Shown in pieces: positions 35,911 to 38,459 of a stretch of 64,000 nucleotides of DNA. This stretch comes from Sulfurospirillum sp. (GTDB taxonomy: Bacteria > Campylobacterota > Campylobacteria > Campylobacterales > Arcobacteraceae), in the NCBI GenBank assembly GCA_030491005.1, contig JAKZMJ010000032.1, forward strand, positions 1-64,000, given 5' to 3'. Position 1 is the stretch's first letter. Every line of letters starts with the position of its first letter. The position numbers and the translations under genes are program-made. The notes beneath the pieces are model-generated. The model was not told the origin of the DNA. It saw only the letters and a list, made by a program, of their open reading frames with translations, and searched no databases.

Positions 35911-35960
35911 TCTATTGTAAATAGATTTATACTCAAATTTATATTTTTATATAAAAATAT
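35909..35960. terminator. Hairpin region between ispH and the thioesterase gene
   Basis: AATCTATT (35909-35916) and AATAGATT (35920-35927) form an eight-base-pair stem starting in the ispH stop. Then 35941-35960 is a perfect 20-base AT palindrome, ATATTTTTATATAAAAATAT, overlapping the thioesterase stop. Together they could end transcription from both convergent genes, but AT-only stems are weak. Confidence 0.4.
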
Positions 35961-36309
35961 CTATAATATTTTGTGGAATTTTGTGAGGTTTAAAATCTTT
36001 TAGATAGGCTACTTTGATATTTGTAGTAAACAAAAGCTCATCATTTCTAAATATTTCATGGAATATTAGAAGAGATGCTTTTCTTTTTTTAATTAATTTT
36101 GTATTTATATAAATCATATCACCAAATTTTGCTGGTTTTATATAATTTGCCTCTACACTTTTTACAACAAAAAATTCATCTTGTGAATGTGGAGATAAAT
36201 TTCTTTTAAAAAACAATTCACTCCTAGCTCTTTCACAAAATTTTAAATAATTTGCATAATATACAACACCACCTAAATCTGTATCTTCATAATATATTCG
36301 CATTTTCAT
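35947..36309 (-). CDS. ybgC: YbgC-type acyl-CoA thioesterase
   Basis: A 120-residue hotdog-fold thioesterase. The N-terminal RIYYEDTDLGGVVYYANYLKF is the 4-hydroxybenzoyl-CoA thioesterase/YbgC signature, with the nucleophile-type Asp early in the motif, followed by ERARSE. A structurally characterised Helicobacter homologue hydrolyses long-chain acyl-CoA. In many Gram-negatives ybgC precedes tolQ, but no tol genes are here; it is monocistronic and convergent with ispH. Complete length for the family. Confidence 0.9.
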   Translation of the reverse strand: MKMRIYYEDTDLGGVVYYANYLKFCERARSELFFKRNLSPHSQDEFFVVKSVEANYIKPAKFGDMIYINTKLIKKRKASLLIFHEIFRNDELLFTTNIKVAYLKDFKPHKIPQNIIDIFI

Positions 36310-36450
36310 ATTTTAAGCTCCTATTTAACATATTTTAAGATTGAAGTTTGAAATCTTTTTTAATGTAGATTAATCATATCATTAAAATAAAGAATTTCAA
36401 TTAATTCGAATATTATTTTATAAGTATTTAATAAGAATAAATCCATTATC

Positions 36451-36475
36451 TAGCACTTAAATACAAAAAGTGCCA
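36451..36475. promoter_or_regulatory. CIRCE-like inverted repeat upstream of htpG
   Basis: TAGCACTT (36451-36458), nine bases, then AAGTGCCA (36468-36475). The CIRCE operator of the heat-shock repressor HrcA is TTAGCACTC-N9-GAGTGCTAA; spacing is identical and six of the core bases in each arm (AGCACT and AGTGC with a following C) match. It lies 79 bases before the htpG ATG, upstream of a possible -10 (GATAAA near 36514). hrcA is not in the window. Confidence 0.6.
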
Positions 36476-36554
36476 AATTCTTTTTAAACTTTAGCTTTCT
36501 TTTATAAAGTTGTGATAAAATTCCATTATAAAAATTAATTATTAGGAAGAAAAT

Positions 36555-38459
36555 ATGGCTAAACATAAATTTCAAACAGAAGTAGGACAATTATTACATT
36601 TAATGACGCATTCTTTATATTCAAATAAAGAGATATTTATAAGAGAATTAGTATCAAATGCAAGTGATGCAATAGATAAGTTAAATTATCTAAGATTAAC
36701 AAATGAAGATATTAAAAAATCTTTACCACAAGATTGGTCAGGTAAAGTTACAATGTCTTTTGATGAAAAAGAAAAATCTTTAACAATTGTTGATAATGGT
36801 GTAGGTATGAATGAAAAAGATTTAATCTCTTCAATTGGAACAATAGCAAAATCAGGAACAAAATCATTTGTTGAAGCAATGACAGGTGATGCTAAAAAAG
36901 ATTCAAATCTAATAGGTCAATTTGGTGTTGGTTTTTATTCAGTTTTTATGGTGGCATCTCATGTTGATGTTATTTCAAAAAAAGCAGGTGAAGATAAAGC
37001 ATATAAATGGTCAAGTGATGGTTCAGGAGAATTTGATTTAGATGTAGTTACTAAAGAGAATGCTGGAACTGTTATATTTATAAAATTAAAAGATGAAGAA
37101 GCAGAAGAATTTGCTTCAAAACATAGAATAGAAAATATTGTAACTAAATATTCAAATCATATTGCTTATCCTATTTTCTTAGATTATAAAGAAGAAGTAG
37201 AAGAAGACTTAAGTGAGGAAGATAAAAAAGCTGGAAAAGAAGCTAAAAAAACAATAGAAGATAAACACGAAAAAATAAATGAAGCAACTGCATTATGGAT
37301 GCAAGCAAAAGCAAAGCTTAAAAAAGCTGAATATAATGATTTTTATAAGTCAATATCTCATGATAGCGAAGATCCAATGTTAAGTATTCATACAAAAACT
37401 GAAGGAGTAAATGAATATACAACATTGTTCTATATTCCAAGTAAGGCTCCTATGGATATGTATAGAGCTGATTATCAACCAGGTGTAAAACTTTATGTTA
37501 AAAGAGTATTTATAACTGATAGTGAAAAAGAGTTATTACCTACTTATTTAAGATTTGTAAGAGGTATTATTGATAGCGAAGATTTACCTTTAAATGTAAG
37601 TAGAGAAATTTTACAAGAAAACAGAGTTATGGCAAATATAAAACAAAGTTCTGTTAAAAAAATATTAAGTGAAATTAAAAAATTAGCTAAAAAAGAAGAA
37701 GTATATGCACAATTTATTGAACAATATAATAGAGCTTTAAAAGAAGGAGTTTATCAAGACTTTACTAATAAAGATGCTATTTTAGAACTTGTAAGATATA
37801 AATCAACAAATAGCGACAAAATGACTTCATTAGCAGATTATAAAGACAGAGCAAACACAGAACAAAAAGCTGTTTTTTATATAGTAGGAGATAATGAAAA
37901 AGTTCTTAAAAACTCACCTTTACTTGAAGCATATACAAAAAATAAAATTGAAGTTCTAATATTAGATGATAAAGAAATTGATGAGATTATAACTCCTGCA
38001 ATTGGAGCTTATAAAGAATGGACTTTAAAAGATATATCTTCTTGTGAAGCACCTGCTGTTGAGCAAAGCGAAGAAAAGAAAAAAGAAGTTGAGGAAAAAT
38101 TTCAAGATATTACAAAAAAAATAAAAGATATCTTAGGGGAGAGTGTAAGTGAAGTTAGAGTAACAAATAGATTAAATCTTTCACCTTCTTGTGTAGTAAA
38201 AGATGGAAATGACCAAATGGCACAAATGGCACAAATGATGCGTTCAATGGGTCAAGAGATGCCAGAAACTGCTCCTATTTTAGAAATAAATCCAGAGCAT
38301 GAAATAGTTTCAAAATTAAATTCTTTAAAAGATGAAGATATGATTAGTGATATTTCTTGGATTTTATTAGATCAAGCAAAATTAAGTGAAGGTATCAATA
38401 TAACTGATGCAGTAGCATTTTCACAAAGATTAAATAGAATTACTACAAAAGCTTTATAA
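36555..38459 (+). CDS. htpG: Chaperone HtpG (bacterial Hsp90)
   Basis: A 634-residue ATP-dependent chaperone. The GHKL ATPase domain begins ETEVG-like (FQTEVGQLLHLM), with the catalytic Glu and Asn in FIRELVSNASDAIDK, the DNGVGM motif, and the IGQFGVGFYS lid-glycine loop. A charged linker (about residues 215-240) joins the middle domain, which has LPLNVSREILQENR, and the C-terminal dimerisation domain follows. AGGAAG precedes the ATG. A CIRCE-like dyad lies 79 bases upstream, suggesting heat-shock control by HrcA. It is monocistronic. Confidence 0.97.
   Translation: MAKHKFQTEVGQLLHLMTHSLYSNKEIFIRELVSNASDAIDKLNYLRLTNEDIKKSLPQDWSGKVTMSFDEKEKSLTIVDNGVGMNEKDLISSIGTIAKSGTKSFVEAMTGDAKKDSNLIGQFGVGFYSVFMVASHVDVISKKAGEDKAYKWSSDGSGEFDLDVVTKENAGTVIFIKLKDEEAEEFASKHRIENIVTKYSNHIAYPIFLDYKEEVEEDLSEEDKKAGKEAKKTIEDKHEKINEATALWMQAKAKLKKAEYNDFYKSISHDSEDPMLSIHTKTEGVNEYTTLFYIPSKAPMDMYRADYQPGVKLYVKRVFITDSEKELLPTYLRFVRGIIDSEDLPLNVSREILQENRVMANIKQSSVKKILSEIKKLAKKEEVYAQFIEQYNRALKEGVYQDFTNKDAILELVRYKSTNSDKMTSLADYKDRANTEQKAVFYIVGDNEKVLKNSPLLEAYTKNKIEVLILDDKEIDEIITPAIGAYKEWTLKDISSCEAPAVEQSEEKKKEVEEKFQDITKKIKDILGESVSEVRVTNRLNLSPSCVVKDGNDQMAQMAQMMRSMGQEMPETAPILEINPEHEIVSKLNSLKDEDMISDISWILLDQAKLSEGINITDAVAFSQRLNRITTKAL

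Follow-up and report, generated by a model that had tools for sequence, protein, structure and literature searches.

A conserved CIRCE-type element upstream of htpG in Arcobacteraceae and a HAIR-like element at a fixed distance from it

HrcA and HspR in described systems

HspR and HrcA co-repress groESL and hrcA-grpE-dnaK in Campylobacter jejuni and Helicobacter pylori (PMC7464140). In C. jejuni the two repressors interact directly and bind DNA cooperatively, HspR being positioned upstream and HrcA covering the core promoter along with the start site (PMC7464140). Raised temperature abolishes the DNA binding of C. jejuni HrcA itself (PMC8533110). Loss of hrcA in this organism has been reported to raise the expression of three genes, and htpG is not one of them. 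A CIRCE element is present at hsp90 (htpG), as well as at the groE and dnaK operons, in Clostridium cellulovorans (PMC8336468), which cites Tomas et al. 2003 for CIRCE/HrcA control of hsp90 in C. acetobutylicum. The statement of a preliminary description of this DNA that HrcA control of an Hsp90 gene is 'less usual' is a fair one, although CIRCE at hsp90 is known in clostridia. In the open-access papers searched, neither HrcA nor CIRCE is described at htpG of any member of Campylobacterota; subscription work, such as that of Permina and Gelfand (2003) on CIRCE regulons of epsilonproteobacteria, lay outside the scope of this survey.

The DNA analysed here (the window) is a stretch of 64,000 nucleotides, the source of which is described as a marine bacterium of the family Arcobacteraceae. 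Its genome resembles those of C. jejuni and H. pylori in having the same two repressors, the hrcA-grpE-dnaK and cbpA-hspR contexts, and CIRCE together with a HAIR or HAIR-like element at one promoter. The order of the elements is reversed, however, because at htpG of the window CIRCE comes first and the HAIR-like element lies over the core promoter. The window's genome and Clostridium are alike in carrying CIRCE upstream of the Hsp90 gene and at the groE and dnaK operons. The fetched Clostridia htpG loci also carry CIRCE, and in these loci it is perfect or near-perfect and lies 32-52 bases before the gene, whereas the operator of the window has T/A as its inner arm bases, precedes the promoter and is accompanied by the HAIR-like element. 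The best explanation as a whole, to which we assign a probability of roughly 0.8, is that the dyad before htpG is a functional CIRCE through which HrcA would repress the gene, likely jointly with HspR.

The dyad before htpG and HrcA in the same genome

The features around the dyad are as follows.

35947-36309, minus strand: acyl-CoA thioesterase-like open reading frame, upstream of htpG and divergent from it, starting about 140 bases from CIRCE
36450-36476, plus strand: predicted CIRCE-type HrcA operator, CTAGCACTT-N9-AAGTGCCAA, resting on its consensus score, genome scans and family conservation
36544-36549, plus strand: ribosome-binding site AGGAAG, read from the sequence
36555-38459, plus strand: htpG, Hsp90 chaperone of 634 aa (NCBIfam NF003555, 706.5 bits, cut-off 371; Pfam HSP90 PF00183, 381 bits)

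Judged from these model matches, htpG is an ordinary HtpG. The full 27-mer of the dyad reads CTAGCACTT-AAATACAAA-AAGTGCCAA and is separated from the htpG ATG (36555) by 78 bases. When scored over the 18 arm positions of the consensus TTAGCACTC-N9-GAGTGCTAA, it reaches 14/18, retaining the core GCACT/AGTGC. The four deviations are C for T at position 1, T for C at position 9, A for G at position 19 and C for T at position 25. The preliminary description had given the 25-mer at 36451-36475, a gap of 79 bases to the ATG and the N9 spacing of an HrcA operator, all of which are exact on re-reading. It had placed the deviations at the two outermost bases and one core base. This is correct for the left outermost base, but the right outermost base matches the consensus, and the innermost arm bases both deviate. 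Scanning found no CIRCE at dnaJ in the window, as had been stated.

Such dyads are rare in the genome. The strict core GCACTN11AGTGC has three matches in 2.69 Mb and none in the reversed control. Two of the matches precede groES and htpG; the third lies within a HugZ-like coding sequence (G000 C1:26957) and was taken as chance. With at most one mismatch, TAGCACTN11AGTGCTA occurs five times in the 2.69 Mb, compared to 0.3 expected from a dinucleotide model: at groES, at htpG, twice flanking the hrcA promoter, and once within an Lnt-like coding sequence (C15:265966), also taken as chance. About 6.5 two-mismatch sites are expected per genome, and two are C1:6958 and C30:181644. A score of at least 14/18 is reached by 0.15% of simulated 400-bp upstream regions.

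The preliminary description had reckoned with a genome devoid of HrcA as an argument against the operator. This is not the case, because hrcA is present as the first gene of hrcA-grpE-dnaK (L058:1313-2110; product of 265 aa). The protein matches NF003033 (HrcA family regulator) at 237 bits, slightly under the cut-off of 248, TIGR00331 over its N-terminus (E 5e-22) and the N-terminal part of PDB 1stz (E 7e-11). Pfam PF01628, a C-terminal HrcA model, has no match in the genome, this gene included. The absence of HrcA that this suggests was rejected as a gap in the model, the gene beside grpE being identified by NCBIfam and the PDB sequence. Since PF01628 misses this Campylobacterota HrcA, Pfam-based surveys would wrongly score it as absent.

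The CIRCE sites expected before groES and hrcA-grpE-dnaK were both found. The groES site is near-perfect and has a perfect core, so the specificity of HrcA appears to be intact in this genome. The hrcA-grpE-dnaK promoter (TTGACA/TATAAT) is flanked by two CIRCE copies (L058:1206-1299). Its -35 is overlapped by CTTGACA-N7-ACTCAAT, which looks like HAIR.

Conservation and sequence of the operator in the family

Conservation was examined in 61 Arcobacteraceae genomes, where a site was defined as a score of at least 14/18 within 400 bases upstream of htpG. All 61 contain htpG, 59 contain hrcA, and 57 carry CIRCE upstream of htpG, with a chance level of about 0.15% per region. The conservation before htpG anticipated earlier is thus confirmed, and by this evidence the dyad at 36450-36476 is a real, family-wide CIRCE-type site. 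Together with the presence of hrcA and the sibling CIRCE sites, it supports the HrcA operator first proposed for this position, which very probably functions as such at htpG.

The four genomes without the site all belong to one genus, g46. One of them, G186, has kept hrcA and has CIRCE at groES, but none at htpG. In two others, G177 and G193, hrcA was not detected and CIRCE was not found anywhere at one mismatch or fewer; both are drafts with contig ends near grpE. MerR-type genes, like hrcA, were not detected in these two drafts, which possibly represent a lineage lacking both heat-shock repressors. At a contig end of G177 there is a second htpG copy, which is fragmentary and interrupted by a stop (G177:C6:36979-37336, L246).

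Sampled members of eight other families have no CIRCE at htpG. It is present in both sampled members of family f6, and some genomes of family f3 have a degenerate version overlapping TATAAT. At the f3 loci L111, L121, L107 and L118, this -10 lies inside the spacer of the degenerate CIRCE upstream of htpG (e.g. TTAGCACTCGGTGCTATAATGTGCTAA). It is possible that this is a differently placed candidate HrcA site at the same gene. No htpG match was found in the near-complete genomes G004, G006, G028, G039, G040, G086 (f5) and G031 of the class.

Among the 57 htpG sites of Arcobacteraceae, 31 score 16 and 17 score 17, and the 14/18 of the window is among the lowest. This position near the bottom of the family could mean that the dyad is a fading relic, formerly bound by HrcA and by now too divergent to have an effect in this species. 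C at position 1 combined with C at position 25 occurs only in the two genomes of the window's genus, and C at position 25 alone is confined to the same two; these bases could weaken the dyad. However, the arms keep the GCACT/AGTGC core and the exact spacing, the deviations are common to both genomes of the genus while the spacer varies freely, and the near-perfect groES site speaks for an HrcA of intact specificity. A relic is therefore improbable.

In 30 genomes from which both promoters were fetched, positions 9/19 of the htpG CIRCE are T/A in 19, C/A in 6 and C/G in none, while the groES CIRCE has C/G in 21 of the same genomes. The canonical C/G is rare at these positions in htpG operators. 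Because the deviation of the window at positions 9/19 is common to the htpG orthologues, it is not decay; the inner bases look like a gene-specific variant of the operator.

The htpG promoter and the HAIR-like element

Conservation around the htpG CIRCE is one-sided. The 45 bases that precede it hold 4 bits, and the 50 bases that follow it hold 39 bits, with the consensus AAACTTTAGC......TTTTATAAAGTT.TGATAAAATT. CIRCE therefore appears to lie upstream of the htpG promoter. Two further elements can be recognized in the window.

36489-36509, plus strand: HAIR-like 21-nt element CTTTAGC-TTTCTTT-TATAAAG, a probable HspR site by its fixed 12-bp gap and its co-occurrence with an HspR-type gene
36513-36521, plus strand: extended -10 element TGATAAAAT with the hexamer TAAAAT at 36516-36521; TGaTAAAAtT is conserved throughout the family and keeps a constant distance to the HAIR-like block

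The start site would be near 36528, and relative to it CIRCE spans about -78 to -52. The block at 36489-36509 would then overlap the -35 region and spacer of the promoter. The conserved htpG -10 was missed by a sigma-70 consensus scan. A -35 is often missing from promoters of this class. The layout at groES is the reverse: TTGACA, TATAAAAT and, farther up, TTTAGT-N7-ACTCAA are all upstream of CIRCE, which follows the -10. A groES-like promoter just upstream of the htpG CIRCE was considered and rejected, since the 20 bases directly before CIRCE hold 2.8 bits at htpG compared to 18 at groES.

In genera g50, g54, g4 and g48 (L185, L065, L174, L221, L225 and others), an insert of about 53 bases separates the promoter from htpG. 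It holds the start of a mini-ORF and a small stem-loop, the stem of which seems to covary (GTTGC..GCAAC, ATTGC..GCAAT). Rfam gave no match on the htpG leaders of these relatives. The insert is absent from the window's own genome.

Of the 48 clear cases (block scores of at least 11/14), 47 have a gap of 12 bp between CIRCE and the block, and the remaining one has 13 bp. The gap sequence is not conserved, as the mean identity of its first eight bases is 0.45, compared to 0.43 expected from composition. The distance to the start codon varies between 38 and 109 and is 299 in a single case. The constancy of the 12 bp across genera also bears on which gene CIRCE serves. The thioesterase-like reading frame is divergent and begins about 140 bases from the dyad, in favour of a role of CIRCE at that gene or at both, but a distance fixed towards the htpG side argues against this, and locus L018 has CIRCE at htpG without any reading frame of at least 80 aa in the 2 kb upstream. 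Control of the divergent gene is thus very unlikely.

The block, CTTTAGC-N7-TATAAAG, has the 21 nt and 7-7-7 layout of HAIR. Compared with the HAIR sequence CTTGAGT-N7-ACTCAAG, it matches at 9/14 positions in the window's genome, where its length is right and its right arm weak. In 10 of 11 genomes the score is 9-10/14, little above background, and the block of the eleventh, G134, is not among the best matches listed. As a positive control, CTTGATT-N7-ACTCAAG or a sequence close to it is present at the cbpA promoter of each of the 11 genomes examined. A MerR-family gene of the HspR type directly follows cbpA in the window's genome (L294:1465-1863).

Across 19 scanned genomes, the block is present in all 11 that have such a gene and in none of the 8 that lack it (Fisher p 1.3e-5). 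When collapsed to genera, the comparison is of 11 versus 3 groups and p is about 0.003 by hand, the genomes lacking HspR being few and related. Genus g51 holds both kinds: G180 has gene and block, and G169 neither. CIRCE is kept at htpG in genus g3 and in G169, both of which have lost the HspR-type gene. G169 still has a HAIR-like sequence (11/14) at its hrcA promoter, which blurs the co-occurrence when different promoters are compared.

These data must be weighed against the reading that HrcA alone controls htpG via CIRCE, the block being nothing but core promoter with an unusual -35 and spacer. The low similarity to HAIR agrees with this, and the distance from the block to the extended -10 is always 3 bases, as expected of promoter sequence. 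A constant distance between CIRCE and promoter would also fit HrcA acting directly on RNA polymerase. However, the block is present exactly in the genomes that have an HspR-type gene, with CIRCE retained where that gene is lost. Furthermore, the block shares with HAIR its 21 nt and the CTT of its left end, and its AT-rich right arm is like that of low-affinity C. jejuni sites (PMC7464140). Control by HrcA alone is rather unlikely, but deserves to be taken seriously, and it is somewhat more probable than not that HspR acts at htpG through 36489-36509.

From these comparisons we infer the binding of HrcA and HspR at htpG, the direction of regulation, the heat response and the cooperation. At normal temperature, HrcA made from hrcA-grpE-dnaK would bind 36450-36476 and lower htpG transcription. 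Heat would inactivate HrcA, and htpG would be induced alongside groESL and dnaK. With CIRCE placed ahead of the core promoter, HrcA is unlikely to obstruct the start site in the way it does at groES. It would more likely act with HspR on the HAIR-like element 12 bp downstream, the proteins stabilizing each other on the DNA. The rigid spacing would exist because the two proteins touch. For the family we propose, with the odds slightly against us, that Arcobacteraceae htpG has a composite HrcA-HspR operator with the two sites in inverted order, CIRCE first and HAIR over the core promoter, at a rigid distance of 12 bp, where HrcA may repress from its upstream position by keeping HspR on the promoter. 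An inverted layout of this kind has not been described for the known HrcA/HspR targets as reported.

On this reading, the HrcA regulon would include Hsp90 throughout a family of Campylobacterota, in contrast to the reported C. jejuni hrcA regulon, which lacks htpG. The invariant operator distance and the gene-specific CIRCE variant may provide a natural test of cooperation between HrcA and HspR, to which the related genomes that have lost one or both repressors, and the matching site, would add.
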